Source: Micromonospora sp. WMMD882
Lineage (GTDB): Bacteria > Actinomycetota > Actinomycetes > Mycobacteriales > Micromonosporaceae
Direction of reading: 5' to 3'
DNA: 64,000 nucleotides
NCBI RefSeq assembly: GCF_027497255.1
Contig: NZ_CP114903.1
Location: 992,001 to 1,056,000 of the forward strand
The notes below the pieces were generated by a model, which had not been told where the DNA came from, ran no database searches, and saw only the letters and a list, made by a program, of their open reading frames with translations. Positions 6,303 to 21,053 of this stretch are shown here, piece after piece; position 1 is the first letter of the stretch; every line of letters begins with the position of its first letter. A program made the translations under genes and the position numbers.

Positions 6303-6905
6303 ATGAGCGCACCGTCGCGCATCCTGGTCTACGCGGTGTACGGCGCCGGCAAGTCCACCCTCGCGGCGCGGCTGGCCGAACGCCTCCGGCTGCCCTGGTA
6401 CCCGGTCGACGACCTGCTCTGGCAACCCGGCTGGGTGGAGGTGCCGGCGCCCGAGCAGCGCCGCCGGATCGAGGCGATCTGCCGACGCGACCGCTGGATC
6501 CTCGACGGGGCGTACCACGGGTGGCGGGAGGTGCCGCTGGCCCGGGCCGACCTGGTGATCGGCCTGGACTACCCGCGCTGGCTCTCCTTCTGGCGGCTGC
6601 TGCGCCGGACCCTCGTCCGGCTGGTCAGCCGGGAGGAGATCTGCAACGGCAACCGTGAGTCGCTGGGCAGCGTGCTGTCCCGCGACTCGATCCTGCTGTG
6701 GCACGTCGCCGCCTTCGGCCGGGCCCGACGACGGATGCGGACCTGGCAAACCGACCCGTCCGGGCCGCCGGTGCTGCTGTTCCGGTCACCGGCGGAGGCG
6801 GAGCGCTGGCTGGCCGACCTGCCCCCGCCGGCGTCCCGTTCCGGCCGGCCCGGTCAGCCGAGACCGAGACGGGCCAGGGGCTCGACCAGCTCACGCTCCT
6901 CGTAG
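6303..6905 (+). CDS. FlaR-like P-loop nucleotide kinase/topology modulation family protein
   Basis: 200 aa. Walker A VYGAGKST at about residues 11-18, then PVDDLLW (acceptor-binding DD), RWILDGAY and a hydrophobic LVIGLDYPRW strand, the arrangement of the small adenylate-kinase-like proteins annotated as DNA topology modulation protein FlaR. The real cellular substrate of this family is unknown. The last 17 codons (low-complexity Arg/Ser/Pro) run across the 3' end of the convergent LLM/hemerythrin gene by 52 bp, so the natural C-terminus may be an extension of the usual family end. Monocistronic. Confidence 0.7.
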   Translation: MSAPSRILVYAVYGAGKSTLAARLAERLRLPWYPVDDLLWQPGWVEVPAPEQRRRIEAICRRDRWILDGAYHGWREVPLARADLVIGLDYPRWLSFWRLLRRTLVRLVSREEICNGNRESLGSVLSRDSILLWHVAAFGRARRRMRTWQTDPSGPPVLLFRSPAEAERWLADLPPPASRSGRPGQPRPRRARGSTSSRSS

Positions 6906-8509
6906 GACAGGTGGGACAGCAGCGCGTCGGTGAGCGCGTCCACCGCGGCGCGCAGACCGGACAGGTCGCCCGCCCCGCCGACCAGCGCCACCAGGGCCCG
7001 GTCGACCTGCTCGACCACCAGGTGGATGATCCTGTGTTCCTCTTCGAGGCGGGTGGTGACCGGGCCGAGACGGGGGTCACGCCGACGCAGGTGCGGGAGC
7101 ATCGAGACGTCCTCGATGGTGTGGTGCGTGGTGACCAGCCGGCAGTAGGACTCGCAGTACGCGCCGAGCGTCCAGTTGTTCTGCCGCAGGGTCATCGCGT
7201 TGATGTGCGAGCGGGCGGCGGCCACGTCGAGCGCGCCCGCCGCCACCTGGTCCACCAGGTCCCGCACCTGGGCGAGCTCCTGGCGCAGGTGGTCGTGCAC
7301 GTCGATCAGGTGCTGGCCCTGGGCCCGTTCCCGCGCGGAGTACCGGCGTCCGGCCTCCGGGGCGGGCCCGGTCGGCCGGGTGCTCTCGTCCCAGACGGCG
7401 GTGTCGCTGTGCCGCTTCCCGTCGTCGGGAGTGGGCGTCACGCCGAGGCCGGGGATCTCCCGCGGCACCGAGAAGTCCCCGCCGCCGCGCCCGGGCGTCG
7501 GCTCGGCCGGGGCCGGGCCACCGCCCGCCGCTGACCGGTCCGTGCTCCCGTTCGGGTTCGTGGCCCCTGTCGGTCCGGCGGTCGGGCCCGGGGGCGCCGT
7601 CGGGCCCGACGTGGCCGCCGCGCCCGCGCGGGCGGCGTCGACCAGCTCGCGGACCCGGGGCGCGACCTCGACGCCGAAGAGCCGGATGTCGGACGGGTCG
7701 TCGCTGGCCAGGATGAACGTGCTGACGCCGTGCGTGAGCGTGAGGTCGGCGAGCCGCCGCGCCCAGTCGTCCGGCGCGCCGGTGAGCGGGCCGGCGCCGC
7801 CGGGACCGAAGGTGCCGTCGACGTTGAGGAGACGACGTACGTCCCCGGGTGACCGCCCGGCCCGGACCGCCGCCGCGTCGATGGTCTCGTTCATGCCGGC
7901 CAGGTGGTCGAGGTCGAGGTAACCGAGGCTGGGCAGCCAGCCGTCCGCCGCGCGGCCGACCAGCCGCAGCATCCGGGGCTTGTAGGCGCCCACCCAGATG
8001 CCGATGTCGTGGGCCGGCAGCGGGCCGACCTTCGCGCCGGTGACCCGGTAGTGGTCGCCCTCGACCCGCGCCCCACGGCCGGACCGGCCCCAGATCGCCC
8101 GGATCACCCTGATCGCCTCGTCCAGCGCCACCACCGACTCCGCCGGGGTACGGCGTGGACCACCGTTGGCGACGATCGCGTCCCAGAACGCGCCGGCCCC
8201 GAGGCCCAGCTCGACCCGGCCGCCGGTGAGCAGGTCGAGGCTGGCGGCCGAGCGGGCGAGCACGGCCGGCGGGCGCAGCGGCAGGTTGGCGACGTTGGGC
8301 GAGACCCGGACCCGTTCGGTGCTGGCGGCGACGACCGACAGCAGCGTCCACGCGTCGAGGAAGGCCGGCTGGTACGGATGGTCCTGCACGGTGACCAGAT
8401 CCAGCCCGACCTGCTCGGTGAGCTGGGCGAGGGCGACGACGTCGGTCGGCGCGTCGGCACGGGGGGTGAGGAACGTTCCGAACGACAGGTCATGCCCGTA
8501 GTCGGCCAC
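6854..8509 (-). CDS. Fusion of LLM flavin-dependent oxidoreductase and hemerythrin domain
   Basis: 551 aa. Residues about 1-290 are a luciferase-like (F420- or FMN-dependent) TIM barrel: FGTFLTP, VTVQDHPYQPAFLD, GRVELGLGAGAFWD, and RMLRLVGRAADGWLPSLGY. A Pro/Gly/Thr-rich linker (about 290-373) follows. The C-terminal 178 residues are an HHE hemerythrin domain: HDHLRQEL, HHTIEDVSMLPHL, EEEHRIIH and HLSYEERELVEPL carry the His/Glu ligands expected for a di-iron site that binds O2 or senses redox state. GTG at 8509 has GGAGG at proper distance. Coupling a deazaflavin/flavin oxidoreductase with an oxygen-binding module in one chain is uncommon; the substrate is unknown. Domain calls are firm, function is inference. 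Confidence 0.85.
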   Translation of the reverse strand: MADYGHDLSFGTFLTPRADAPTDVVALAQLTEQVGLDLVTVQDHPYQPAFLDAWTLLSVVAASTERVRVSPNVANLPLRPPAVLARSAASLDLLTGGRVELGLGAGAFWDAIVANGGPRRTPAESVVALDEAIRVIRAIWGRSGRGARVEGDHYRVTGAKVGPLPAHDIGIWVGAYKPRMLRLVGRAADGWLPSLGYLDLDHLAGMNETIDAAAVRAGRSPGDVRRLLNVDGTFGPGGAGPLTGAPDDWARRLADLTLTHGVSTFILASDDPSDIRLFGVEVAPRVRELVDAARAGAAATSGPTAPPGPTAGPTGATNPNGSTDRSAAGGGPAPAEPTPGRGGGDFSVPREIPGLGVTPTPDDGKRHSDTAVWDESTRPTGPAPEAGRRYSARERAQGQHLIDVHDHLRQELAQVRDLVDQVAAGALDVAAARSHINAMTLRQNNWTLGAYCESYCRLVTTHHTIEDVSMLPHLRRRDPRLGPVTTRLEEEHRIIHLVVEQVDRALVALVGGAGDLSGLRAAVDALTDALLSHLSYEERELVEPLARLGLG

Positions 8510-9409: not shown

Positions 9410-9690
9410 CCGGGCCGTCACGCCGGCCGTCCGCGCATTTCTCTGGATCTCGTAGCGGAACGGATCTCGGAAAGGAACGGGCGACAGCCGCGTCCGTTGT
9501 GTCAACCCGTCGGTCCCTCGCCGAAGATCCGGCGCTTCAGGCGGACGGGATAAGTGTTGCCGGTGCGGCGAAGCGGACGTTCCCGGACGCTTTCCAATGG
9601 TGGGTTCGGCGAGCGAAACCGTTTTCCCCGAGTTCGGGCCGGACGATGGCGGAGACGGGTGGGCGCGGGTTTTGCGCCCGGAAGTCCGAC
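9410..9690. other. Intergenic stretch without recognisable gene
   Basis: About 280 bases after the lipoprotein stop. Open frames across it have no ribosome binding site or recognisable protein. Base composition is locally lower in GC (CATTTCTCTGG, AAAGGAACG), but no promoter feeding a gene could be assigned. Confidence 0.5.
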
Positions 9691-9728
9691 GCGCCGGCAG
9701 GCGACCCACCGTGGGTGCCTGCCGGCGC
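9691..9728. terminator. Strong bidirectional terminator hairpin
   Basis: Outer 12-bp perfect stem GCGCCGGCAGGC (9691-9702) / GCCTGCCGGCGC (9717-9728), one bulged G, then an inner 5-bp stem ACCCA/TGGGT with CCG loop. Lies 25 bp from the MerR stop and downstream of the convergent lipoprotein gene. Confidence 0.75.
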
Positions 9729-9752
9729 GCGGGGCGAACGGCGCCCGGTCGG

Positions 9753-10127
9753 TTACCGGGCGGCGCCGACCAGTTCGTTGGCGCCCGAGCGGTGCAGGAT
9801 GTCCAGGATCAGGGAGCGACAACGGTCGATCTCGGCGGACGCCTCGTCGAGGCGGTCGACCTCCTGGCGCAGCGTCGCGACCAGGTTCCTGCACGGGTCG
9901 ACGCGGGGAGTGGCGTCGACCACACACGGCAGCAGCAGCTCCACGGTGCGCAGGGGGAGACCCACGTTGAGCAGGGCCCGGATCCGGCGGACCTTCTCGA
10001 TGTCCTCCGGGGCGTAGTGGCGGTACCCGTTCGCGGTGCGTACGGACTGGAGCAGCCCCTGCTGTTCGTAGTACCGAAGCAGTCTGGTGCTGACGCCGGT
10101 GCGTTCCGACAGCTCGCCGATGAGCAT
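9753..10127 (-). CDS. MerR-family transcriptional regulator
   Basis: 124 aa. N-terminal winged helix MLIGELSERTGVSTRLLRYY with EQQGLL and RTANGYRHY (wing) is canonical MerR. A coiled-coil dimerisation helix follows (about 80-115), and two Cys (LLPCVVD near 87, DPCRN near 97) could be sensor residues. Start ATG 10127 has GAGGAGG upstream. It is divergent from a hydrolase/oxidoreductase/MFS operon whose promoter carries a long-spacer dyad typical for MerR-type activation, so it probably senses a toxic or electrophilic small molecule and induces its detoxification and efflux. Confidence 0.9.
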   Translation of the reverse strand: MLIGELSERTGVSTRLLRYYEQQGLLQSVRTANGYRHYAPEDIEKVRRIRALLNVGLPLRTVELLLPCVVDATPRVDPCRNLVATLRQEVDRLDEASAEIDRCRSLILDILHRSGANELVGAAR

Positions 10128-10151
10128 GGCAATCCTCCTCACACAAAGCCG

Positions 10152-10184
10152 CTTGACCTTCACACTACTGTCAAGGCTTACGTT
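10152..10184 (+). promoter_or_regulatory. MerR-type promoter with operator inside a 19-20 bp spacer
   Basis: -35 TTGACC (10153-10158) and -10 TTACGT/TACGTT (10178-10184) are separated by 19 or 20 bp, the over-long spacing that MerR proteins correct by DNA distortion. The dyad CTTGAC (10152-10157) N12 GTCAAG (10170-10175) fills the spacer. The predicted start falls at 10190-10191, on the ATG of the hydrolase gene, so this transcript also appears leaderless. Confidence 0.65.
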
Positions 10185-10190
10185 CGCCCT

Positions 10191-10946
10191 ATGAAAAGCT
10201 ACGGTACTGGCCGTACGGCCGTCATCACCCATGGCGTACAAACTGTCGCCGACCACTGGGCCGAGGTTGCCAACCGGCTGCCCGGTCGCACGCTCGTCCC
10301 GAATCGTCGGGGTCGCGGAGAGAGCGTCCCGATCGGTGACGACTACGAACTCGCCACCGAGGTGGCGGATCTGCACCGGGTGCTCGACCAGGCCGGCCCG
10401 GAGCCGGTCCTGATCGGGCACAGCTACGGCGGCATGATCGCCCTGCTCGCCGCCGCCGAGCGGGACGACCTGGCGGGCCTCGTGCTGTACGACCCCACGG
10501 TCCCGGTCGACGGCCCGGTCACCGGGGACGGGCTGGACGTGATGCGCGCGGCGCTGAAGGCCGGGGACCGCGACACCGCGTTCGCCACCGTGCTCACCCG
10601 GGTCGTCGGTGAGTACCCGGAGGACGTGGAGGGCTTCCGGACCGGTGACCCGGCCGGCTGGGCCGGGATGCTGGAGCTGATCGACAGCACCTACGCCGAG
10701 CTCTCCGCGCTGGACCGGCTGGCCTACGACCCGTCGTTGCTGGCGAAGGTCACGGCGCCCACCTGGGTGATCGTCGGCGAGCGCAGCGACCGCGAGGAGC
10801 TGGTGTTCGGGCGGGCCGCCCGGGCGCTGGTCGACGGCATCGCCGACGCGAGGCTGGTGGTGCTGCCCGGTCAGGGGCACGTCGCGCACGTGGCCGACCC
10901 CGACGCCCTGGCCGACGCGATCCGGCCCGCGTTGAAGGGGTTCTGA
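10191..10946 (+). CDS. Alpha/beta hydrolase
   Basis: 251 aa. Nucleophile elbow GHSYGG at about residues 77-82, oxyanion segment near THGVQTVADHW, an acid candidate in the GERSDREE loop and the catalytic His in LPGQGHVAHVADP close to the C-terminus: a complete Ser-Asp/Glu-His set. Cytoplasmic, no signal peptide. ATG at 10191 directly follows the MerR-controlled promoter with no Shine-Dalgarno. First gene of a three-gene operon with a quinone-oxidoreductase-like enzyme (3-bp gap) and an MFS exporter, suggesting hydrolysis of a toxic ester, lactone or similar compound; the substrate is unknown. Confidence 0.85.
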   Translation: MKSYGTGRTAVITHGVQTVADHWAEVANRLPGRTLVPNRRGRGESVPIGDDYELATEVADLHRVLDQAGPEPVLIGHSYGGMIALLAAAERDDLAGLVLYDPTVPVDGPVTGDGLDVMRAALKAGDRDTAFATVLTRVVGEYPEDVEGFRTGDPAGWAGMLELIDSTYAELSALDRLAYDPSLLAKVTAPTWVIVGERSDREELVFGRAARALVDGIADARLVVLPGQGHVAHVADPDALADAIRPALKGF

Positions 10947-10949
10947 GCG

Positions 10950-11819
10950 ATGCGGGCGGTGCTGCTGCACGAGTACGGCGATCCGACGCTGCTGCGGGTG
11001 GCGGATCAGCCGGAGCCCACGGCCGGTCCGGGGCAGCTCCTGGTCCGGGTCGCCGCGGCCGCGGTGAACCCGGTGGACCTGCAGGTGCGCTCCGGCGAGC
11101 ACGCGGCGCACGTCCGCGTGCCGTTCCCGATGATCCTCGGCTGGGACCTGGCCGGCACGGTCGTCCAGGTGGGCGCCGGAGTCTCGGCGTTCGCGCCGGG
11201 TGACCCGGTGGTGGCGATGTCGGCGCAGATGGCCACCGGTGTCGGCACGTACGCCGAGCTGGTCGCCCTGGACGCGGCGCTGGTCGCCCCGGCGCCCCGC
11301 AGCGTGCCGCTGGCGCACGCGGCGGCGCTGCCGCTGGCCGGTCTGACCGCCGAGCAGGCCCTGGACGTGCTGGACCTGCCGGCGGGCCGGACGCTCCTGG
11401 TGACCGGGGCGGCCGGCTCGGTGGGCGGCTTCGTGGTGGAGTTGGCCCGCACGCGTGGTCTGGAGGTGATCGCGCACGGCCGTCCCGGTGACGCCGGGAC
11501 GGTCAGCGCGGTCCCGGCCGGCGCGGCCGACGGGTGGATCGACACCGCGGGTCTGCCCGGGGCGATCCAGGGGGTCCGGGACGGCGGTCGGGCGGTGTCG
11601 ATCGTGCCGACCGCCGCGCCGGTCGCCGAGCGCGGCATCGAGGTGCGGATGTCCTTCGTCGAGCAGGACGGCATCCGGCTCGCGCAGCTCAGCAAGCTCG
11701 TCGACGAGGGCGCGCTCACGATCCGGGTCGGCGGGGTCTTCGACCTCGCCGAGGCCCCGGTCGCCCACGCCCGGCTCGCCGCCGGTGGCAGTCGGGGCAA
11801 ACTGCTGCTCACTCCCTGA
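10950..11819 (+). CDS. Zinc-independent MDR oxidoreductase (quinone oxidoreductase-like)
   Basis: 289 aa medium-chain reductase. MRAVLLHEYGDP start, VAAAAVNPVDLQVRSG, GWDLAGTVVQVG and the NADPH motif VTGAAGSVGG (about residues 151-160) are typical of NADPH:quinone oxidoreductase/crotonyl reductase relatives. The Cys ligands of zinc alcohol dehydrogenases are absent. It would reduce quinones or alpha,beta-unsaturated carbonyls using NADPH. At 289 aa it is shorter than the usual 310-330 because the region after the nucleotide-binding loop is compact. In the MerR-controlled operon it fits a detoxification role. Confidence 0.85.
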   Translation: MRAVLLHEYGDPTLLRVADQPEPTAGPGQLLVRVAAAAVNPVDLQVRSGEHAAHVRVPFPMILGWDLAGTVVQVGAGVSAFAPGDPVVAMSAQMATGVGTYAELVALDAALVAPAPRSVPLAHAAALPLAGLTAEQALDVLDLPAGRTLLVTGAAGSVGGFVVELARTRGLEVIAHGRPGDAGTVSAVPAGAADGWIDTAGLPGAIQGVRDGGRAVSIVPTAAPVAERGIEVRMSFVEQDGIRLAQLSKLVDEGALTIRVGGVFDLAEAPVAHARLAAGGSRGKLLLTP

Positions 11820-11828
11820 GGACCGGTC

Positions 11829-13013
11829 ATGCCGCTTCCCCTGTTCGCGTTGATGCTGTGTGTGTTCAGTGTCGGCACCGCCGAGTCGGTGATCGCCGGG
11901 ATCCTGCCGCAGATCGCGGGGGACCTGGGGGTCTCGGTGCCCGCGGTCGGGCTGCTCGTGTCCGGCTACGCCCTGACCGTCGTGGTGGGCGGTCCGCTCG
12001 TCACCCTGCTGACCGGGCGGATACCGCGCAAGTCGCTGGTGCTCGGCCTGATCGCCGTTTTCGTGGCGGGTAATCTGATCGCGGCGGTCGCCGACGATTA
12101 TGCGGTGTTGCTGGCGGGACGCGTGGTTTCCGCGCTCGCGCACTGCACGATGTTCGCGGTGTGCATCGTGATCGCCAATGGTCTGGTCGGCGCCGGTCGG
12201 CAGGGTTCGGCGGTGGCCAGGGTCGCGCTCGGTCTCAATCTGGCGACCGTCGTCGGCGTGCCGATCGGGACGGTGCTCGGGCAGGAGTTCGGCTGGCGCT
12301 CCACATTCTGGGCGGTCCTGCTGATGAGTGTGGTTTCGGCGCTGCTGGTGTTCGGATTCGTGCCGGCGGTGCCGGGTCCGTCGAGTGCGGGCGCGGTCGG
12401 TGAGCTGGCGGTGCTGCGGGATCGGCGGGTGTGGTCCGCCGTCACGATGACCGTTTTCGCCAGCGCGGGTGCTTTCGCGGCCTACACCTTTATCGCGCCA
12501 TTACTCACTGAGGTCGGTGGTTTCGGGCCGGTTGCGCTCACCACGCTGTTGTTCGTGTTCGGCGGCGGGTCGATTGTCGGCAATCTCGTCGGCGGTCGTC
12601 TCGTCGACCGGGCGGTGCTGCCGGCCCTGGTGTCGACGGTGGCGGCGCTGACGCTGTCCCTGCTGTTCCTGGCGGTGGTGGCGCCGGTGCGCCCGCTGGC
12701 GGCGGTGGCGGTGCTGCTGTTCGGGGCCAGCTATTTCTCGATCATTCCGGCCCTGCAGGCCCGCATCATGACGGCTGCGGGCGCGCGGGCGCCGACCTTG
12801 GCGCTCGCCGTGAACATCTCCGCCTTCAATATCGGAATCGGAGGCGGGGCGTGGCTCGGGGGTCGGGTGATCGACGCCGGGCTCGGCTACCGGGCGGTGG
12901 TTCTGGTGGGCGCCGCGGCGGTGGTGGTCAGTGTGCTGGTCGCTATCCGGGAATTGATCGTGGCGCGAGCGCGGGATACGTCGACCGTCAGTCGGGAACA
13001 CCAGCTCGTTTAA
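11829..13013 (+). CDS. MFS efflux transporter (AraJ/DHA1 type)
   Basis: 394 aa with about 12 hydrophobic helices. The loop 2-3 signature appears as GPLVTLLTGRIPRKSLVLG, and the first helix MPLPLFALMLCVFSVGTAESVIAGILP is typical of the DHA1 arabinose-efflux-like (AraJ) group. Codons in the second half are less GC-biased (many GGT, GTT, ATT) than in neighbouring genes. ATG 11829 follows a GAGG site 9 bp after the oxidoreductase stop. Likely exports the compound or breakdown product that activates the MerR protein. Confidence 0.85.
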   Translation: MPLPLFALMLCVFSVGTAESVIAGILPQIAGDLGVSVPAVGLLVSGYALTVVVGGPLVTLLTGRIPRKSLVLGLIAVFVAGNLIAAVADDYAVLLAGRVVSALAHCTMFAVCIVIANGLVGAGRQGSAVARVALGLNLATVVGVPIGTVLGQEFGWRSTFWAVLLMSVVSALLVFGFVPAVPGPSSAGAVGELAVLRDRRVWSAVTMTVFASAGAFAAYTFIAPLLTEVGGFGPVALTTLLFVFGGGSIVGNLVGGRLVDRAVLPALVSTVAALTLSLLFLAVVAPVRPLAAVAVLLFGASYFSIIPALQARIMTAAGARAPTLALAVNISAFNIGIGGGAWLGGRVIDAGLGYRAVVLVGAAAVVVSVLVAIRELIVARARDTSTVSREHQLV

Positions 13014-13054
13014 CGTTCCTCGTTGATCTGTTTAACCTGGTTGTAGCCTTCGGT

Positions 13055-13102
13055 GGGAAAGCTTGGGTGGGTCTGCTGCGGTGGGCTTGCCCAAGCTTTC
13101 CC
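13055..13102. terminator. 13-bp perfect inverted repeat after the MFS gene
   Basis: GGGAAAGCTTGGG (13055-13067) and CCCAAGCTTTCCC (13090-13102) with a 22-nt loop, starting 41 bp after the MFS stop and ending 167 bp before the cyclase gene. Likely transcription terminator; the sequence is less GC-rich than the other hairpins, so an operator or leader role for the next operon remains possible. Confidence 0.6.
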
Positions 13103-13231
13103 GTGCATCTTGGATGTGATCTGCGAAAAGCTGTGAGGCAATGCACAGGGTGTTGTTAAGCGCATCGTGGCATGTCAATATTAGCTAGCTCGCCCGAACG
13201 TAGAGGCCAGTCCCGTTCGGGTTCGAGGTTC

Positions 13232-13249
13232 TGACTGTTCTGTCAGTCA
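13232..13249. promoter_or_regulatory. Inverted repeat upstream of the cyclase operon, candidate operator
   Basis: TGACTG-TTCTGT-CAGTCA, perfect 6-bp half sites, 20 bp before the ATG of the cyclase. A weak promoter (TTGTTA 13153-13158, AT-rich TATTAG around 13179-13184) lies upstream, which would place the repeat in the untranslated leader as a roadblock-type site. Confidence 0.45.
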
Positions 13250-13269
13250 ATCGAGACCGGGGGTGAATC

Positions 13270-14472
13270 ATGTCAATCAACTTGGCGGACCGGGGGGTCG
13301 TACGGTCCGAAAACGGGCTCTACGTCTACAGCGAGCAGGTGGACTCCTGGGTGGTCCGGACGCAGAAGCCGGTCAGCTACGAGATCCGGTTCGTGGACGA
13401 CGTGCTCGACCCGCGTCACCGGGACCTCATCGACTTCGGCGGCCGGACCGAGGGTCGGCAACGTCGGTTCGTGGTGGTGGACAGCAAGGTCGACCTGCTG
13501 CACGGGGACCGGATCCGCGAGTACTTCGACCAGCACGGCGCCGAGTGCGCGCTGTCGGTCGTGCCGGCCGACGAGACGGTCAAGGACTTCGAGACCGCCG
13601 CCCGGATCGTGCGGGAGATCGACGCCTTCGGCATCAACCGGCGGACCGAGCCCATCATCGTCTTCGGCGGCGGCGTGCTGATGGACATCGTCGGCCTGGT
13701 GGGCAGCCTCTACCGGCGGGGCACCCCGTTCGTCCGGGTCCCCACCACGCTGATCGGCCTGGTCGACGCCGGTGTCGGCGCGAAGACCGGGGTGAACTTC
13801 AACGGCCACAAGAACCGGCTGGGCACCTACTTCCCGGCCGACCTGACCCTGCTGGACCGGTCGTTCCTCGGCACGGTGGACCGCCGGCACATCGGCAACG
13901 GCCTCGCCGAGATCCTGAAGATCGCCCTGATCAAGGACGTGCGGCTGTTCGAGCTGCTCGAGGAGCACGGCGCCGACCTGCTGGCCAACAAGTTCCAGGG
14001 CGTCAACCGCGCCGGCGACATCGTGCTGCGCCGCGCCATCCACGGGATGCTGGAGGAGCTCCAGCCCAACCTGTGGGAGGCCACCCTGGAGCGGTGTGTC
14101 GACTACGGACACACCTTCAGCCCGACCGTCGAGATGCACGCCCTCCCCGCGCTGCTGCACGGCGAGGCGGTCTGCGTGGACATGGCGCTCACCACCGTCA
14201 TGGCCACCCGGCGCGGCCTGATGACCGAGGCGGAACGCGACCGGGTCTTCGAGGTCATGCGTCGGCTGGAGCTGCCGAGCTGGGACCCACGCCTCTGCCC
14301 GGACCTGCTGATGAAGGCGTTGCAGGACACCGTCCGGCACCGCGACGGCATGCAGCGGCTGCCGCTGCCGGTGGGCATCGGCGGCGTCACGTTCGTCAAC
14401 GACGTCACCGCCGAGGAGATCGCCGCGGCGGTCGAGGCGCAGCGCGCGATCGGCGTCGCCCGTCATGTCTGA
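13270..14472 (+). CDS. Sugar phosphate cyclase (2-epi-5-epi-valiolone synthase-like)
   Basis: 400 aa member of the dehydroquinate-synthase-like superfamily. The NAD motif GGGVLMDIVG is at residues 133-142, and the zinc ligands fall at Glu214 (LAEILK), His281 (DYGHTF) and His297 (LLHGEA). VRVPTTLIGLVDAGVGAKTGVN and KNRLGTYFP match cyclases that use sedoheptulose 7-phosphate (EEVS/EVS type) better than dehydroquinate synthase, and RHRDGMQRLPLPVGIGG near the C-terminus is seen in valiolone-type enzymes. The product would be a C7 cyclitol such as 2-epi-5-epi-valiolone. It opens a seven-gene operon; the VOC protein downstream resembles the epimerase used on this product. EEVS, EVS and desmethyl-gadusol subtypes cannot be separated by eye. 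Confidence 0.85.
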   Translation: MSINLADRGVVRSENGLYVYSEQVDSWVVRTQKPVSYEIRFVDDVLDPRHRDLIDFGGRTEGRQRRFVVVDSKVDLLHGDRIREYFDQHGAECALSVVPADETVKDFETAARIVREIDAFGINRRTEPIIVFGGGVLMDIVGLVGSLYRRGTPFVRVPTTLIGLVDAGVGAKTGVNFNGHKNRLGTYFPADLTLLDRSFLGTVDRRHIGNGLAEILKIALIKDVRLFELLEEHGADLLANKFQGVNRAGDIVLRRAIHGMLEELQPNLWEATLERCVDYGHTFSPTVEMHALPALLHGEAVCVDMALTTVMATRRGLMTEAERDRVFEVMRRLELPSWDPRLCPDLLMKALQDTVRHRDGMQRLPLPVGIGGVTFVNDVTAEEIAAAVEAQRAIGVARHV

Positions 14473-15157
14473 CCAGATCGTCGTCACGGACGTCGAAGGC
14501 GTCACCGACATCTTCGGCGTCCACGGCGCCACCGGCATGAGCCACTGGAAGTGCCTGGCCAGCCGCCGCCACCTGCGCGGCGACTGGGAGGCGGTGGAGC
14601 TGGCCCGGGTGCCGCCGGGCGGGTTGTCCGGCGAGCACCGGCACACCCGGACCGAGGAGATCTACTACGTGGTGGCGGGCGAGGGCGAGATGTCGCTCGA
14701 CGGCGTCGGTCACCGCGTCGCCGCCGGATCGGTGGTGCTGACCGGCCTGGGCACCATCCACGGTCTGCGCAACACCGGCGCCACCGACCTGGACTGGATC
14801 ACCGTCGAGGTGCGGGTCCCGCACCCCGTGAGCCCCCTGGAGGAGAAGGTGAACGCACACATCCACGACCTGAGGGCGGCGGGTGAGCTGGACACCACCG
14901 CGTTCTTCACCGGGCCGCTGCGCCGGGTCGCGGTGCGGACGATGGCCGCCGACACCGAGCTCCCGCTGCACGCCGTCGGCGTGGAGCACGCGATCTTCGT
15001 GCTCGCCGGCTCGGGCAAGGCCGAGACCGTCGAGCTGCGCCCCGGGGTCGCGGTGACCCTGCCGCTGGGCACCGGCGCGCAGGTCTCCGCCGGCCCGGAC
15101 GGGCTGGAGTTCTTCCACGTGGAGCTGACCGTGCCCCGGTCGAGGAGCCAGCGGTGA
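14465..15157 (+). CDS. Bicupin-like protein
   Basis: 230 aa. The N-terminal half carries a full metal-binding cupin motif: GEHRHTRTEEIYYVVAGEGEM (His-x-His-x4-Glu) and TIHGLRN (second motif His). The C-terminal half (about residues 135-225) repeats the fold weakly with LPLHAVGVEHAIFVLAGSG but with incomplete ligands. It may be an isomerase, epimerase, dehydratase or dioxygenase acting on the cyclitol. The gene overlaps the cyclase stop by 8 bp and the next gene by 4 bp (GTGA), so its product is made in step with the pathway. Exact reaction unknown. Confidence 0.75.
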   Translation: MSDQIVVTDVEGVTDIFGVHGATGMSHWKCLASRRHLRGDWEAVELARVPPGGLSGEHRHTRTEEIYYVVAGEGEMSLDGVGHRVAAGSVVLTGLGTIHGLRNTGATDLDWITVEVRVPHPVSPLEEKVNAHIHDLRAAGELDTTAFFTGPLRRVAVRTMAADTELPLHAVGVEHAIFVLAGSGKAETVELRPGVAVTLPLGTGAQVSAGPDGLEFFHVELTVPRSRSQR

Positions 15158-16542
15158 TCGTCAACCACCACGACGTCCCGGGCCGGGTGGGCGACTCCGA
15201 GACCTGGCGCTGCCTGGCCCGGCGCGGGATGCTGCACAGCGAGACCGAGTCGTTCGACCAGCTCCGGCTGGGCCCCGGCACGGAGCTGGTGCACGACCCC
15301 GCCGACGCGGTCGAGGAGCTGCTGTACGTGGTCTCCGGCTCCGGCCGGGCCGACGACCGCGCGCTGGCCCCGGGCGCCGTCGTGCTCGCCCCGCACGACC
15401 GTCGGGTCGTCCTCACCGCCGCCCCCGACGACGGACTCGAACTGCTCGTGGTGCGGACTATGCCGGCCGAGGTCAGCGGCGCGTTGCCGGCCCGGGTGCC
15501 GCAACTGCCCGACTGGCCGGTCGGCACGATGCGGGCGGCGGCGATCCTGGGGCGGCACGAGGTGTCCGTGGTCGACGCCCCGATCCCGGCCACCCGGCCG
15601 GGGCAGGTGCTCGTCGCGCCGCTCGTGGTCGGGCTCTGCGGCACGGACCTGGAGCTGCTGCACGGCACGGCCACCTACGTCCGCGACGGCCGTACGACGC
15701 TGCCGCACGTGTTCGGCCACGAGTGGGTCGGCCGGGTGGTGGCGGTGGCGGACGGCGCGAACCCGAGGATCAAGCTGGGTGACCGGGTGGTCGGGCACAC
15801 CATGCTGCCGTGCGGGCGGTGCCGCTCCTGCCAGCGTGGCGTACGCAACGGCTGCGCGTCGCTGCGGGAGGTCGGCCTCTACGGCCAGCAGGGCGCGGCG
15901 GCCGAGTACGTCAGCATGCCGGCCCACGAGCTCACCCTGGTCCCGCACGAGGTCGACGACCGGGCCGCGGCGCTGGTCGAGCCGACGGTGACGGTCCTGG
16001 CCGGCTTCGACCGGGCCCACGTCACGCCCGGTGACCGGGTGCTGGTGCTCGGCACCGGCACGATCGGGCTGCTGGCGGTGCAGCTCGCCGCGCGTACCGC
16101 CGGGGTGGTGGACGTGGTGGGCGTGGCCGACGGCGGCCTGGAGCTGGCCCGGGCGTACGGCGCACGACGCGCCTTCCGGCCCGGGGAGGCGCCGTCGGGC
16201 GGCTACGACGTGGTGGTCGAGGCGTCCGGCGCGGCCCCGGCGTTCGCCGAGGCGCTGCGGTTGGCCGACATCGGCGGCCGGGTCTGCGCCATCGGGGTGC
16301 CGGCCGCGCCGGTCGACCGGGTGGACGCCGCCGACCTGGTGCTGCGCGGCATCAGCGTGCACGGCATCCGGCACGGCCTGGACCACTACGAGCGGGCGCT
16401 GGCCCTGTTCGCCGGTGGCGTGCTGACCGCGGCCGGCATGATCACCGACCCGTTCCCGTTGGCCGACGTGGCCAGGGCGTTCGCCGAGCTGGAGAACGCC
16501 GATCGTAGATATCCCAAAGTAGCTCTGCACGTGGGGGAGTAG
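15154..16542 (+). CDS. Fusion of a degenerate cupin domain and zinc-dependent MDR dehydrogenase
   Basis: 462 aa. Residues about 1-120 form a cupin-like domain (HDPADAVEELLYVVSGSGRA, then APHDRRVVL) that lacks most metal ligands. Residues about 125-460 are a sorbitol/threonine-dehydrogenase-like MDR: CGTDLELLHG and FGHEWVGRV supply catalytic zinc ligands, CGRCRSCQRGVRNGC supplies the structural zinc Cys (C-x2-C-x2-C-x7-C), and LVLGTGTIGLLAVQLA is the NAD motif. It would oxidise or reduce a hydroxyl/ketone of the cyclitol intermediate. The cupin part resembles the free cupin encoded just upstream, which suggests duplication and fusion inside this operon. Confidence 0.85.
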   Translation: MIVNHHDVPGRVGDSETWRCLARRGMLHSETESFDQLRLGPGTELVHDPADAVEELLYVVSGSGRADDRALAPGAVVLAPHDRRVVLTAAPDDGLELLVVRTMPAEVSGALPARVPQLPDWPVGTMRAAAILGRHEVSVVDAPIPATRPGQVLVAPLVVGLCGTDLELLHGTATYVRDGRTTLPHVFGHEWVGRVVAVADGANPRIKLGDRVVGHTMLPCGRCRSCQRGVRNGCASLREVGLYGQQGAAAEYVSMPAHELTLVPHEVDDRAAALVEPTVTVLAGFDRAHVTPGDRVLVLGTGTIGLLAVQLAARTAGVVDVVGVADGGLELARAYGARRAFRPGEAPSGGYDVVVEASGAAPAFAEALRLADIGGRVCAIGVPAAPVDRVDAADLVLRGISVHGIRHGLDHYERALALFAGGVLTAAGMITDPFPLADVARAFAELENADRRYPKVALHVGE

Positions 16543-16544
16543 AC

Positions 16545-17330
16545 ATGTTCCGTTCCATCGCCGTCGTCACCGGCGCCAGCTCGGGCATCGGCGCGGAGAT
16601 CGCCAAAGCGCTCGGCGCGGCCGGCCACGACGTCCTGCTGGGTTACGGCGTGAACGCCGTCGCCGCGAAGGGGCTCGCCGACCGGATCGCCGCCGAACAC
16701 GGGGTGCGTACCGGACTGGTGGGCCTGGACCTGACCGAGCCGGAGCTGGCCGCCGAACAGTTCGCCGCGGCCGTCGACACCTTCGGCGGGATCGACGTGC
16801 TGGTCAACAACGCCGGGGTGAACCGGCGGGCCGAGGCGGTCGACGAGACGGTCGAGGACTGGCGGCGGGTGTTGGAGGTCAACCTCACCAGCCCGTTCGT
16901 GCTGGCGAAGCTGGCCGCCCAGCGGATGCTCGCGCAGGGCCGCGGCGGCCGGATCATCAACGTCACCAGTTGTCACGAGCACTACCCGATCAGCGGCGGG
17001 TCGACGTACTGCGTGAGCAAGGCCGGGCTCGGCATGCTCACCAAGGTGATGGCGCTGGAGCTCGCCGGCGCCGGCATCACGGTCAACGCGGTGGCCCCCG
17101 GCGAGACGGCCACCCCGATGAACGGCGTCCCCGACGGCGTGGACGCCGCCGACATCCACCGGCCCGCCATCCCGGCCGGCCGACCGGGCCGCCCGGCCGA
17201 GGTCGCGGCGCTGGTCGCGCACCTCGCGTCCCCGGCGGCCGGCTACACCACCGGAAGCTCCGTGATCATCGACGGTGGGCTCGGGCTCACCGCCGCCGAG
17301 GCCAACGCCCAGCGGGCGGGCCAGTTCTGA
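16545..17330 (+). CDS. Short-chain dehydrogenase/reductase (FabG-like)
   Basis: 261 aa classical SDR. TGASSGIG at about residues 10-17, NNAGVN near 85-90, catalytic Ser in NVTSCHEH and YCVSK (YxxxK) near 156-160, then NAVAPGETATPM. NAD(P)H-dependent carbonyl reduction or alcohol oxidation on a pathway intermediate is expected. ATG 16545 is 2 bp after the MDR stop; GGGGGAG precedes it. Two different dehydrogenase families adjacent in one operon suggest at least two separate oxidation-state changes on the C7 core. Confidence 0.85.
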   Translation: MFRSIAVVTGASSGIGAEIAKALGAAGHDVLLGYGVNAVAAKGLADRIAAEHGVRTGLVGLDLTEPELAAEQFAAAVDTFGGIDVLVNNAGVNRRAEAVDETVEDWRRVLEVNLTSPFVLAKLAAQRMLAQGRGGRIINVTSCHEHYPISGGSTYCVSKAGLGMLTKVMALELAGAGITVNAVAPGETATPMNGVPDGVDAADIHRPAIPAGRPGRPAEVAALVAHLASPAAGYTTGSSVIIDGGLGLTAAEANAQRAGQF

Positions 17331-17342
17331 GGAGGAGCAGCG

Positions 17343-18260
17343 ATGCCTGGTATCCCCACCGCCCGCAACGTCGACCACCTCGCCTACACGGTCCCCGACC
17401 TCGACCAGGCCGACAAGTTCTTCACCGAGGTCCTCGGCGCGCAGGTGCTGTACCGGCTGGGCCCGGTCCAGGAGCCGGACAGCGACTGGATGGCCGTGCA
17501 GCTCGACGTGCACCCCCGGGCCAGCGCCCAGATCAGTCTGCTCCGGCTGGGTGAGGTGACCAACCTGGAGCTGTTCGAGTACACCGCGCCGGACCAACGG
17601 ACCGTGCCGCCGGCGAGCACCGACGTCGGCGGGTACCACATCGTCTTCGACGTGGCCTCCCTGGACGACGCGGCGGACCACCTCGCCCGGCACGGCGTCG
17701 CCGCCAGCCGCCGCGGGGACTCGCTCTTCTTCGCCTCGCCCTGGGGCATGGCGTTCGAGGCGCGGCTCGCCCCGGAGATCGACGGCCTGTTCCGGCCCGG
17801 CGGCTCGTGGAACGTCAGCCAGGTCCGGTACACCGTCGCCGACCTCGACGCCAGCGTCGGCTACTTCACCGGGCACCTCGGGGCCCGGCTGCTGCGGCGG
17901 GACCCGGACGCGGCGCTGCTGCGGCTCGGCCCGGTGACGAACCTGGAGCTGCGGCAGTGCGCGCCGGGGGCGCGCACGCGGCGACCGCGCAACAGCGACG
18001 CCGGCGGGCACCACCTGGCGTTCCACGCCGAGGACGTGGACGCGGCGGCCGCGTACCTGCGGGGTCTGCCCGGCTTCCGGGTGCTCGGCGACGTGCAGCT
18101 CATCGCCGACGGCGGCCCGATCCACGGCGACCGCTGGTTCTACTTCACCGCCCCCGACGGCTTCCAACTGGAGGTGCTGAACATGCCGCCGGGCATGCCG
18201 TACGAGCAGTTCACCAGCGCGCGCCGGTTCGGCCCCGCCCCGGAGTGGACGACCGACTGA
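17343..18260 (+). CDS. Two-domain VOC (glyoxalase/dioxygenase fold) protein, possible cyclitol epimerase
   Basis: 305 aa with two VOC modules. Module one begins ARNVDHLAYTVPDLDQADKFFTEVLGA, and module two begins WNVSQVRYTVADLDASVGYFTGHLGA; metal-ligand candidates are His16 (VDHLAY), Glu (NLELFEY), His (GYHIVFD), His (GGHHLAFH) and the terminal Glu (FQLEVLN). In cetoniacytone biosynthesis a VOC protein (CetB) epimerises 2-epi-5-epi-valiolone, so the same step is a reasonable hypothesis here given the co-encoded cyclase. Ring-cleaving dioxygenase activity is an alternative since EXDO-type extradiol enzymes share the two-domain architecture. GGAGGAGC ribosome binding site; TGATG overlap with the next gene. 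Confidence 0.8.
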   Translation: MPGIPTARNVDHLAYTVPDLDQADKFFTEVLGAQVLYRLGPVQEPDSDWMAVQLDVHPRASAQISLLRLGEVTNLELFEYTAPDQRTVPPASTDVGGYHIVFDVASLDDAADHLARHGVAASRRGDSLFFASPWGMAFEARLAPEIDGLFRPGGSWNVSQVRYTVADLDASVGYFTGHLGARLLRRDPDAALLRLGPVTNLELRQCAPGARTRRPRNSDAGGHHLAFHAEDVDAAAAYLRGLPGFRVLGDVQLIADGGPIHGDRWFYFTAPDGFQLEVLNMPPGMPYEQFTSARRFGPAPEWTTD

Positions 18261-19261
18261 TGCGCTGGACGGACCTCTACCTCAACGCCGCCTCGGTGGT
18301 CGTCGAGCGGCAGGTCACCGTCGCCGAGGCGGTGGCGGCCGGCTGGTACGACGCGGCGGAGGCCGACCGGACCCGGCAACGGGCCGTCGCGGTGGCCGAC
18401 TCGTCCGGCCCGGACCTCGGGGTGGCCGCCGGCCGGGCCGCGCTGCGGGCCAGCGGCCTCCCGCCGGCCGACGTGGGTCTGGTGATCCACGCGAGCTGCT
18501 ACTTCCAGGGCGTGGAGTTCTGGAACGCCGGCGCGTACGTGCAGCACCACGTGCTCGGTCACGGCGACGCCACCGCGTTCGAGCTGCGCCAGATGTCCAA
18601 CGGCGGCATGTGCGCCCTGGACGTGGCGGCCGGGCAGCTCGCCGCGCGGCCCACCCTGGGCGCGGCGCTGCTGACCACCGGGGACCGCTTCTGCGAGCCG
18701 GGTTTCCCGCGCTGGCGTACCGACCGGGGGTTGGTGTTCGGTGACGCCGGCACCGCCGTGGTGCTCAGCCGCCGGCCCGGGCCCCTGCGGCTGGTGGCCA
18801 CCGCGTCGTACGCCGCGCCGGAGCTGGAGGGGCTGCACCGCGCGCCGTTCGCCGCCGGGTTCCACCAGGCCGGTCCGGTGGACCTGCTGGACCGCAAGCG
18901 GCGGTTCCTGGAGACCATGCCGGTCAACGAGGTGACGGCCCGCAACGAGGCGGGCATGCTCACCGCGATCAAGCGGTGCCTGGAGGACGCCGAGGCCAGC
19001 ATCGACGACATGGCGACGGTGGTGGCGCCGTTCTTCGGCGCGGACCTCAGCGCCAAGCAGTGTCTGCGTCCCATCGGTCTGCGCGCGGAGCAGACCCTGC
19101 TGGAGTGGGGACTGGACATCGGCCACCTTGGCTCCGGCGACCAGTTCGCCGGGCTCGCCCACCTGCTCGACTCCGACGCCCTCACCGCGGGCCGACGCGT
19201 CCTGCTGGTCGGCGTCGGGGCCGGATTCACCTGGACGTGCGCGGTAGTGGAGAAGGAGTGA
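18260..19261 (+). CDS. Ketoacyl synthase III-like acyltransferase with altered catalytic residues
   Basis: 333 aa thiolase-fold protein: LGVAAGRAALRASGLPPADVGLVIHAS, FELRQMSNGGMCALDVAA, VFGDAGTAVVLS and the terminal VGVGAGFTWTCAVVE are all KSIII features. At the usual nucleophile position the motif reads QMSNGG, so Ser113 (not Cys) aligns with the FabH Cys; a Cys at 118 is five residues on. The usual PHQAN His region reads APFFGA, and the GN-S-A region reads GHLGSGD. It therefore probably is not a chain-extending condensing enzyme; related KSIII-like proteins in antibiotic pathways move acyl groups onto sugars or other hydroxyls. ATG 18260 overlaps the VOC stop. Alignment was done by eye. Confidence 0.75.
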   Translation: MRWTDLYLNAASVVVERQVTVAEAVAAGWYDAAEADRTRQRAVAVADSSGPDLGVAAGRAALRASGLPPADVGLVIHASCYFQGVEFWNAGAYVQHHVLGHGDATAFELRQMSNGGMCALDVAAGQLAARPTLGAALLTTGDRFCEPGFPRWRTDRGLVFGDAGTAVVLSRRPGPLRLVATASYAAPELEGLHRAPFAAGFHQAGPVDLLDRKRRFLETMPVNEVTARNEAGMLTAIKRCLEDAEASIDDMATVVAPFFGADLSAKQCLRPIGLRAEQTLLEWGLDIGHLGSGDQFAGLAHLLDSDALTAGRRVLLVGVGAGFTWTCAVVEKE

Positions 19262-19262
19262 C

Positions 19263-20885
19263 GTGACTTCCAACTGGGGGGGACGACTGTCCCGTCGGGG
19301 TCTGATCGGCGGGATGGCGGCAGTGGGCGCGGCGGCGGCGGTGCCGTCCGCGCCGGTCACGGCGGCGCCGGCGGCGTCGCCCGGAGCGACGGCGGCGGCT
19401 TCGACCGAGCCGACCGCGGTGGTGGTCGGACCGGACGACCACCGGTACGGCGACCTGGTGCGGGGCACCAACGCCCGGTGGGTGGGGCAGCCCGAGCGTG
19501 TGGTGCTGGCCCGCACGACCGCCCAGGTCGTGGCGGCGGTGCAGGCCGCCGTCGACGCCGGCAAGCGGATCTCGGTGCGCAGCGGCGGTCACTGCTACGA
19601 GGGGTTCGTGTCGAACCCCGAGGTCAAGGTGATCGTCGACCTGTCGGAGATGAACCGGGTGGACTACGACCCCGGGCGGCGCGCGTTCGTGATCGAGCCG
19701 GGCGCGATGCTGTCCGAGGTGTACGAGCGGCTCTACAAGTTCTGGGGCGTGACGATCCCCGGCGGGTCCTGCCCGTCGGTGGGGGCGGGCGGCCACATCG
19801 TCGGCGGCGGCTACGGGGCGCTGTCCCGGCTGTTCGGGCTGACCGTCGACCACCTGTACGGCGTCGAGGTCGTCACGGTCGACCGCGCCGGGACCGCCCG
19901 GGCGGTGGTCGCGACGCGGGAGCCGGGCGACCCGAACCGGGAGCTGTGGTGGGCGCACACCGGTGGGGGCGGCGGCAACTTCGGCATCGTGACGCGGTAC
20001 TGGCTGCGTTCGCCGAACGCGACCGGCAGCGACCCGGCCGGTCTGCTGCCCCGTCCGCCGGCCGAGGTGGTCCTGGTGAACGCCTCGTGGTCCTGGTCGT
20101 CGTTGACCGAGGAGACGTTCGCCCGGCTGGTGACGAACTTCGGCCGCTGGCACGAGCGCAACTCCGCGCCCGGCTCGCCGGCCACCAGGCTGTTCAGCCA
20201 GCTCAAGCTGTTCCACCGCAGCGGGGGCAACGTGGTGCTGGTCGCCCAGGTCGACGCGGGCGCGGCGAGCCTGCTCTCGCCGTTCCTCGCCGAGATCGAC
20301 GCCGGGGTGGGCGGGATGACCGTCACCGAGCGCCGCCAGGTGAACTGGCTGCACGCCACCGGCTGGCCGGGCTTCGCCGGCATCGACCCGACGCTGCGGT
20401 TCAAGGACAAGTCGGCCTACCTGCGCCGGTCGTTCACGCCGACGCAGGTCGCGGCGATCCACCGGCACCTGACCGACGGGTACCGCAACGGGGCGGCGTT
20501 GCTGCTGCTGGCCGGCTACGGCGGGCAGGTCAACGCGGTGGCGTCCGACGCCACGGCCGTGCCCCAGCGGGATTCGATCCTGAAGGCGCAGTACCTCAAC
20601 TTCTGGAGCGACCCGGCGGAGGACGAGCAGCACCTGAGCTGGGTGCGGGACTTCTACCGGGACGTCTACGCCGAGACCGGCGGGGTGCCGGCGCCGAACC
20701 AGGTCAACGACGGCTGCTTCGTCAACTACGCGGACGTGGACCTCGGCGACCGTACGCTGAACCGCTCCGGGACGCCCTGGCACGCCCTGTACTACAAGGG
20801 TGGCTACCCCCGGTTGCAGCGGGCCAAGGCGCGTTGGGACCCGACGAACGTGTTCCGGCACGCCCAGTCGATCCAGTTGCCCTGA
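19263..20885 (+). CDS. Tat-exported berberine-bridge-type FAD oxidase, predicted bicovalent flavin
   Basis: 540 aa. Twin-arginine signal LSRRGLIGG at residues 9-17 followed by an Ala-rich hydrophobic stretch. The FAD-binding domain carries RSGGHCYEG with His110, and GGSCPSVGAGGH with Cys170; His and Cys spaced by 60 residues is the spacing of the 8-alpha-histidyl/6-S-cysteinyl flavin in GOOX-type oxidases. The C-terminal BBE motif is NDGCFVNYADVD and YYKGGYPRLQRAKARWDP. It would oxidise an alcohol with O2, outside the membrane, so the last step of the pathway is probably extracytoplasmic. GTG 19263 is 1 bp after the KSIII-like stop; no terminator is obvious after it. Confidence 0.85.
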   Translation: MTSNWGGRLSRRGLIGGMAAVGAAAAVPSAPVTAAPAASPGATAAASTEPTAVVVGPDDHRYGDLVRGTNARWVGQPERVVLARTTAQVVAAVQAAVDAGKRISVRSGGHCYEGFVSNPEVKVIVDLSEMNRVDYDPGRRAFVIEPGAMLSEVYERLYKFWGVTIPGGSCPSVGAGGHIVGGGYGALSRLFGLTVDHLYGVEVVTVDRAGTARAVVATREPGDPNRELWWAHTGGGGGNFGIVTRYWLRSPNATGSDPAGLLPRPPAEVVLVNASWSWSSLTEETFARLVTNFGRWHERNSAPGSPATRLFSQLKLFHRSGGNVVLVAQVDAGAASLLSPFLAEIDAGVGGMTVTERRQVNWLHATGWPGFAGIDPTLRFKDKSAYLRRSFTPTQVAAIHRHLTDGYRNGAALLLLAGYGGQVNAVASDATAVPQRDSILKAQYLNFWSDPAEDEQHLSWVRDFYRDVYAETGGVPAPNQVNDGCFVNYADVDLGDRTLNRSGTPWHALYYKGGYPRLQRAKARWDPTNVFRHAQSIQLP

Positions 20886-20914
20886 GCCCCGGGACTCTTC
20901 ATCGACGGATGTCA

Positions 20915-20944
20915 TTGACGAGAACAGTTAAGACTCCTTAGGAT
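20915..20944 (+). promoter_or_regulatory. Promoter of the chitinase gene
   Basis: TTGACG (20915-20920), 18-bp spacer, TAGGAT (20939-20944). Predicted start about 20951, giving a roughly 100-base leader. The AT-rich -10 region stands out from its surroundings. No DasR-like or chitinase direct-repeat box was found. Confidence 0.6.
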
Positions 20945-21053
20945 TTGCCTGCCTCGAGGAGTTCCTGCTCTCACCCGTACCCGACCGGCGGCCGGCGACC
21001 CCGGCGGCCGGTCGGGTGCGGGGCGCCGTGCTCCGTCCACGGGAAGGTCCTCG

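Follow-up and report, generated by a model that had tools for sequence, protein, structure and literature searches.

The cassette described here, eleven genes from Micromonospora sp. WMMD882, is best compared with pathways that begin with a 2-epi-5-epi-valiolone synthase (EEVS). Validamycin biosynthesis (ValA, ValD) has an EEVS in common with it, and a 2009 paper by Xu et al., to go by its title, reportedly places an epimerase of the vicinal oxygen chelate (VOC) superfamily in that pathway. The cetoniacytone A (cet) cluster combines an EEVS with a VOC epimerase, CetB, and uses an aminotransferase for a C7N amide product. Gabosines and COTC, the rancinamycins and streptol are nitrogen-free C7-cyclitols, as is the product proposed below; COTC is the crotonyl ester of a gabosine, and both COTC and the rancinamycins are acylated. 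Streptol is described as a nitrogen-free C7-cyclitol (PMC8599487; PMC10717218), and C7-cyclitol carbasugars are described from Streptomyces lincolnensis (PMC10717218). The acarbose module (AcbC-AcbM-AcbO-AcbL-AcbN) shares the EEVS entry enzyme. Its AcbL, annotated as a dehydrogenase, is described as dehydrating 5-epi-valiolone 7-phosphate (PMC7081202), and AcbN as reducing the AcbL product (PMC7081202; PMC9200736).

The window, the whole stretch of 64,000 nucleotides that was analysed, spans positions 992001-1056000 of a single-contig genome of 6.37 Mb and contains the cassette at 9713-20885 (11.2 kb). We propose, with a probability of about 0.57, that the cassette serves to make and export a carba-sugar, namely a nitrogen-free C7-cyclitol that is oxidised and O-acylated. 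The original prediction had described seven genes, from a cyclase to an oxidase, in a near-gapless row on one strand. All seven open reading frames (ORFs) are found on the + strand and Pfam agrees with the seven protein families first named, but the unit is larger, since four upstream genes (a MerR regulator, a hydrolase, a second medium-chain dehydrogenase/reductase (MDR) and an exporter of the major facilitator superfamily (MFS)) have same-order orthologues in Micromonospora qiuiae NBRC 106684 (L042) and Actinosynnema pretiosum DSM 44132 (L109). All 11 genes, in one order, are common to the window and these two loci. The features are as follows, where SDR is short-chain dehydrogenase/reductase, KSIII ketosynthase III, KASIII its synonym beta-ketoacyl synthase III, BBE berberine bridge enzyme and FAD flavin adenine dinucleotide.

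9753-10127, - strand: MerR-family regulator (Pfam MerR_1, E 4.3e-20; L109 and L042 have orthologues at this place, 66% and 89%)
10191-10946, + strand: alpha/beta hydrolase, 251 amino acids from ATG 10191 (start inferred; Abhydrolase_6; orthologues in L042 and L109)
10950-11819, + strand: second MDR-type oxidoreductase, quinone-oxidoreductase-like (ADH_N, ADH_zinc_N_2)
11829-13013, + strand: MFS exporter, Cmx/CmrA-like (325 bits, below the family cut-off of 400)
13055-13102, no strand: perfect inverted repeat of 13 bp, its arms 22 bp apart, in the gap from exporter to cyclase gene (repeat search)
13270-14472, + strand: cyclase, EEVS-type (PDB matches, fingerprint, tree)
14465-15157, + strand: bicupin with one conserved metal motif (Pfam Cupin_2)
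15154-16542, + strand: cupin-MDR fusion, small cupin at about residues 1-118 and zinc-type MDR at about 119-462 (Pfam)
16545-17330, + strand: SDR oxidoreductase with S-Y-K residues (Pfam)
17343-18260, + strand: two-domain VOC protein, epimerase candidate (Pfam Glyoxalase)
18260-19261, + strand: KSIII, KASIII-like acyltransferase candidate, 333 amino acids (PDB matches, SNG motif)
19263-20885, + strand: BBE-type FAD oxidase, putatively exported (PDB matches, twin arginine)

The junctions from cyclase to BBE are -8, -4, +2, +12, -1 and +1 bp, given a KSIII start at ATG 18260, 1 base of which is shared with the VOC stop codon. An alternative possible start is GTG 18245; ATG 18260 was preferred because it aligns with the starts of the L109 protein and that of a Streptomyces locus, L043. 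A crude gene caller based on third-position GC (GC3) missed the KSIII and shortened the BBE, and both were settled by homology. The Pfam scan of the hydrolase was made on ORF 9597-10946. The MerR gene, divergent from the other cassette genes, is likely the cassette regulator, and the inverted repeat is possibly an operator, attenuator or terminator; a promoter and terminator scan of the cassette added nothing. Orthologues of the second MDR (60-89%) were found in L042, L043, L044, L050, L067 and L109, and those of the exporter in L042, L044, L045, L050 and L109.

The seven genes from cyclase to oxidase recur in order at 89-94% protein identity in M. qiuiae and 58-76% in A. pretiosum, and since the same order is kept in both, the row is no chance arrangement. 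For all cassette genes compared, M. qiuiae is the nearest named relative. Nor is the gene combination, which the original prediction did not recognise, unique: the exact order exists in two other named genomes and there are many related clusters. Five Streptomyces loci (L043, L044, L045, L047 and L050) contain the cyclase-to-KSIII row as far as their contigs reach, that of L047 ending after the first cupin. Exporter, second MDR or oxidase genes are divergent in the Streptomyces loci where covered, and L043, L044 and L050 also have homologues of three genes identified in L044, those for a transaldolase-family protein, a sulfotransferase and a membrane acyltransferase. In two Archangium loci (L079 and L091) the cyclase, two cupins, MDR, SDR and VOC genes stand in the same order, and therefore, Archangium being a myxobacterium, the module extends beyond the actinomycetes.

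The cyclase has its best PDB match in 4p53 (435 bits), followed by 5tpr (258 bits), which was deposited as a 3-dehydroquinate synthase (DHQS) and which we take to be a desmethyl-4-deoxygadusol synthase (DDGS); the next DHQS scores 130. Aligned to ValA, the window cyclase has D281 and H360; the corresponding letters are A and T in the two DDGS-type references and N plus various others in five DHQS-type rows. These are presumably the fingerprint positions, an assignment that is consistent with ValA and the DDGS-type sequences. 4p53 is reported as ValA, and two fingerprint sites are described as separating EEVS from DDGS (PMC4426668). The cyclase is also 69% identical to the AcbC-type cyclase of L033, which its gene row marks as an acarbose cluster, as do the lengths of acbC (1197 bp) and acbE (3102 bp), equal to those reported (PMC3364876). 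In a maximum-likelihood tree of 98 rows, with several inner forks open and long branches flagged, the window cyclase groups with L042 and L109 (100/93), and a 91-row EEVS clade containing ValA and L033 is split from the DDGS- and DHQS-type references at 98/96. By these comparisons the window cyclase is an EEVS-type, ValA-like enzyme. The original prediction had assigned it to the valiolone branch rather than to primary metabolism; the tree and fingerprint place it in the EEVS clade, and the clustering with dehydroquinate synthases that would have spoken otherwise did not occur.

Two other identities for the cyclase were considered. A DHQS is ruled out by the PDB scores, the fingerprint and the tree, and a DDGS by D and H where DDGS has A and T. 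The genome has three other matches to the DHQ-synthase family, and because one of them is AroB-like the window cyclase is not needed as aroB. The same genome contains a cyclase-family gene (L002, G000:C1:813644-813976), not the AroB-like one, that is 56% identical to A. pretiosum L122 and has N and I at the fingerprint, like neither EEVS nor DDGS; it is possibly similar to 2-epi-valiolone synthase (EVS), whose clade is reportedly easy to mistake for DHQS (PMC5133447). Identification of L109 with the published EVS was dropped: the A. pretiosum genome has five cyclase-family genes, with further DHQS-like cyclases besides that of L109, and EVS is described as DHQS-like.

In the pathway that we propose, EEVS would convert sedoheptulose 7-phosphate to 2-epi-5-epi-valiolone and the VOC protein would epimerise C2. 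The metal bicupin, with the small cupin as partner and the zinc MDR, would then turn the ring ketone, with no phosphate first placed on C7, into a valienone-type enone by dehydration or isomerisation, and the SDR, perhaps with the second MDR, would set the ring oxidation state. A Ser-type KSIII would move an acyl group, probably from a coenzyme A (CoA) thioester, onto a ring or C7 hydroxyl, the MFS protein would export the ester, and a flavin oxidase exported by twin-arginine translocation (Tat) would, outside the cell, oxidise an alcohol to an aldehyde or ketone, plausibly at C7 or at an allylic site. Sequence establishes the homology classes and the subtype of the cyclase, and from these we infer every reaction, the step order and the product. 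Pfam found no aminotransferase, kinase, nucleotidyltransferase or glycosyltransferase among the eleven cassette genes, as had been noted from the outset for the seven, and no aminotransferase, nucleotidyltransferase or glycosyltransferase family in 31 further window ORFs (not all of those present, and some perhaps miscalled). The cassette thus differs from validamycin biosynthesis in having no aminotransferase, kinase or pseudoglycosyltransferase and in adding cupins and acyl and oxidase genes. A nitrogen-free, acylated, oxidised C7-cyclitol would be the simplest product, and it is presumably similar to COTC or a rancinamycin.

In order to see what accompanies related cyclases, a nine-sequence cyclase alignment was used to scan the named genomes, and the best 80 of 373 confirmed loci by cyclase similarity were kept; with nine loci from further genomes of the family and the window itself, 90 loci were compared. 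Because selection went by similarity of the cyclase and many of the loci are closely related, the counts are not independent; L034 and L068, with identical cyclases, are both counted, and absences are soft in nine loci shorter than 19 kb. Both cupins are present in 52 of the 90 loci, and 50 of these 52 (not L077 or L094) also have the VOC gene. An AcbM homologue is missing from 50 of the 52 cupin loci (L094 has one, L058 a weak one at 28%) and an AcbO homologue from 51 (all but L094). The combination of AcbM with AcbL, or AcbO, occurs in one cupin locus (L094) vs 28 of the 38 loci in which the cupin pair is incomplete or absent. Two loci (L112 and L037) have VOC and AcbM and no cupins.

These counts bear on a rival explanation in which the cassette follows an acarbose-like phosphorylated route with a general kinase, the cupins being accessory or regulatory. 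Within its family the cyclase has AcbC-type enzymes as its nearest kin, and the MDR and SDR match AcbL (28% over 176 amino acids) and AcbN (27% over 250 amino acids), but such identities amount to mere general kinship. A tblastn search of the window (64 kb, E 1e-3) matched neither AcbM nor AcbO, the cassette having VOC and two cupins instead, and the full metal motif of the bicupin (H58, H60, E64, H99) is invariant in 32 aligned sequences, namely the window and 31 of 48 listed cupin ORFs, L094 not included. We therefore consider the phosphorylated route quite unlikely.

The proposed kinase-free route assigns the work of that module to the cupins, the MDR and the VOC protein. By analogy with AcbL, the cupins and MDR may dehydrate an unphosphorylated ketone. 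The structure model of the bicupin has a predicted local distance difference test (pLDDT) score of 93; its fold matches YlbA, AerE, BacB, pirin, quercetinase and seed globulins alike with close scores, and because so many unrelated bicupins match, no cupin function can be read from the fold. The small cupin lacks the HxH motif and keeps LARRGMLHSE in 10/10 aligned sequences. In the MDR part of the fusion, C162, H189, E190 and the cysteines at 220, 223, 226 and 234 (numbered on the full protein) are conserved in 12/12. The fusion, a feature of the original prediction, links both functions; it holds for the two Micromonospora copies, while L109, L043, L044, L045 and L050 encode the small cupin and the MDR separately, side by side. 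Two dehydrogenases had also been counted, a number that is uncertain because AcbL, an MDR annotated as a cyclitol dehydrogenase, has been shown to be a dehydratase. The SDR has Y155 and K159 in 17/17 and S142 in 16/17 aligned sequences. The VOC protein has the VOC fold with conserved metal-type residues (H12, E76, H223, H224 and E277, invariant in 9/9), so that it remains a plausible type of enzyme for the epimerase candidate; a fold search returned GLOD4 and two-domain glyoxalases first and no cyclitol epimerase.

The KSIII has its closest solved structures in 4xs7 (229 bits), which we take to be DpsC, CerJ (181 bits) and ChlB3 (170 bits). It has a serine, the DpsC nucleophile, at the site where two of three DpsC-type chains show X (a modified residue) and the third a serine, and the SNG motif with this serine is kept in 14/14 orthologues. 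Because of this kinship and the serine the KSIII is likely an acyltransferase, and the original suggestion of an acyl transfer step is strengthened. CerJ and DpsC act with deoxysugar or polyketide acceptors; the acceptor here would be a cyclitol. The neighbours that could supply an acyl group vary: L081 has a chorismate-binding enzyme, an AMP ligase and an acyl carrier protein (ACP) beside the KSIII, L094 a CoA ligase and an ammonia-lyase-family gene (both below curated cut-offs), L116 a type I polyketide synthase (PKS) and an AMP ligase, and L076 and L078 a second, FabH-like KSIII beside SDRs. This variety fits a transferase with a changing donor. Since the eleven cassette genes include none for an acyl donor, a CoA ester from primary metabolism would be the likely donor. 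The acyltransferase candidate accompanies the BBE oxidase in 20 of the 52 cupin loci, while 4 have the BBE alone, 11 the acyltransferase candidate alone and 17 neither; it is thus found in 20/24 loci with a BBE vs 11/28 without (Fisher p 0.0018, relatedness uncorrected). Streptomyces olivoreticuli L094 has AcbM/L/N/O-type genes divergent from a cyclase-cupins-KSIII-BBE row that is followed by the CoA ligase and ammonia-lyase-family genes, and its product is possibly an aryl-acryloyl cyclitol ester.

The same protein could instead condense or start chains, in which case the cyclitol would be one component of some larger ketide or hybrid product assembled elsewhere. DpsC is itself a ketosynthase III that is said to condense, and 9z38 and 7vyu, deposited as 3-oxoacyl-ACP synthases, match the KSIII at 163 and 158 bits, near CerJ; the other 3-oxoacyl-ACP synthase III chains listed reach at most 34 bits. 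In L116 the type I PKS adjoins the cyclase. The cassette itself has no ACP or PKS gene, and an exporter and terminal oxidase within the unit suggest a finished product. A condensing role for the KSIII thus appears unlikely, and we judge the ketide explanation to be unlikely to the same degree.

The BBE is closest among PDB chains to TamL (587 bits), AknOx (557) and CrmK (553), with GilR also related. Its H110 and C170 align to the His and Cys of 2y08 and 2ipi, residues that we take to be those of flavin attachment, and the flavin is probably bicovalently bound through them. Both residues and the twin arginine are kept in 9/9 orthologues, and the motif, SRRGLIG, precedes a hydrophobic stretch. 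The protein is therefore predicted to be a Tat-exported tailoring oxidase of the TamL/AknOx type, with a substrate, a carba-sugar ester, that would be unlike those of TamL-type oxidases. The extracellular oxidase of the original prediction thus finds agreement in a Tat-type start and a family of natural-product tailoring enzymes.

A further group of loci introduces nitrogen. Nine loci (L081, L088, L097, L111, L113, L095, L099, L104 and L110) have two cupin pairs, a cyclase, VOC, a DegT aminotransferase and a GMC oxidoreductase, and the first five also have a KSIII, a chorismate-binding enzyme and an AMP-ligase homologue; KSIII and chorismate enzyme were not found in the stretches examined of the other four. 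The L081-type loci look like clusters for salicylated C7N aminocyclitols, perhaps of the epoxyquinomicin type. Their co-occurrence of a cupin/VOC core with DegT, KSIII, chorismate-binding enzyme and AMP ligase in L081, L088, L097, L111 and L113 favours an aminocyclitol of the cetoniacytone/epoxyquinomicin kind for the cassette as well, with an aminotransferase in trans and an amide formed by the KSIII. The conserved 11.2-kb unit has no aminotransferase, however, and the L081 DegT query found no match in window positions 3001-31000 or in the examined stretches of L042 and L109. A DegT homologue is absent from the stretch examined in 43 of the 52 cupin loci, where the search covered the DegT family; a pyridoxal phosphate (PLP) enzyme close to L109 lies beyond the unit and belongs to the Cys/Met lyase type. 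An aminocyclitol is accordingly rather unlikely.

Several observations weigh against the nitrogen-free, O-acylated product and the route proposed for it. The reactions and product are predictions from the genes. The window ORFs outside the cassette include two protein kinases and two PfkB-type kinases (5132-6235 and 48654-49634), so that a kinase in trans is possible, as is an aminotransferase in trans given DegT in 9 of the 52 cupin loci. What points to the cupin step is co-occurrence only, and the L094 bicupin lacks H60 and H99. L094 has both cupins together with AcbM/L/N/O homologues, L058 has its weak AcbM beside cupins, and four Nocardia/Rhodococcus loci (L106, L108, L115 and L120) combine VOC, AcbM and AcbL, with no cupins; because of these mixed loci the cupin/VOC and Acb modules are not strictly exclusive. 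The acyl donor is missing from the cassette, and L116, used in the argument for a changing donor, has no cupins.

Mapped on the cyclase tree, the cupin/VOC label requires 11 changes, at least 6 of them forced by well-supported branches, vs a mean of 33.1 for shuffled labels; related cyclases have therefore exchanged one module for the other on more than one occasion. It is possible, though we hold this only tentatively and at less than even odds, that a kinase-free VOC/bicupin/small-cupin route has repeatedly been swapped with the AcbM/O/L/N module, and that the O-acylated, nitrogen-free carba-sugar of the cassette would stay inactive until the exported oxidase forms a reactive aldehyde or enone. 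A class-wide search of 394 genomes with a cupin model, in which the 7 best first-look candidates per genome were scored, matched 7 genomes. Four matches were strong (>290 bits), one of them the window's own, and all four lie within 5 kb of an EEVS-type cyclase. The weaker matches in three genomes (133, 110 and 62 bits), one of which (G607) is in 820 contigs, were not seen next to a cyclase; two of these genomes gave no EEVS-type cyclase at E 1e-60 and the third has one on other contigs.

A related cyclase (E 1e-40) was found in 24 of 200 genomes of the family, the window's own included, mostly at 32-56% identity. The window and the M. qiuiae locus share one blastn match, of 90% DNA identity, which covers 9713-20885 and ends at the oxidase stop codon; the first 30 kb of the window gave no further match to L042 at E 1e-20. 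The patchy cyclase distribution and this clean boundary are compatible with horizontal transfer. In 11 relatives of the genus (L128-L138) right-flank homology begins at 20899-21040, and the up to 1.5 kb compared beyond it has no cassette match apart from one 33-bp stretch in L138; as a weak empty-site test, made on the right flank only with the left flank not recovered, this suggests that the cassette was inserted at this site. Just left of the cassette, at 6854-8509 on the - strand, is an ORF that joins luciferase-like monooxygenase and hemerythrin domains. The patchy distribution might also be expected of a degenerate or silent cassette with no product today, but no reading frame is broken, the active-site residues are conserved and different genera keep the gene order, and we regard this as very improbable.

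The literature searched, which covered few subscription journals, yielded no gene cluster for COTC, a gabosine or a rancinamycin, no cluster matching cupins with valiolone, and no product assigned to this gene order. The original prediction of a new C7-cyclitol pathway stands as to the EEVS and the lack of an aminotransferase, and is qualified as to novelty, nitrogen-free C7-cyclitols such as the S. lincolnensis carbasugars and streptol being known already. An EEVS-based cyclitol pathway is known in kind, then, while the enzyme set of the cassette was not found described in that literature. The hypothesis lends itself to direct testing, the cassette being compact, intact and conserved across genera. 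A diabetes drug and a crop protectant are among the C7-cyclitols. An alternative post-cyclase enzyme set, whose genes 50 of the 90 loci carry, would account for many clusters that are so far uncharacterised, give two families of cupins a function and open a route to nitrogen-free acylated carba-sugars.

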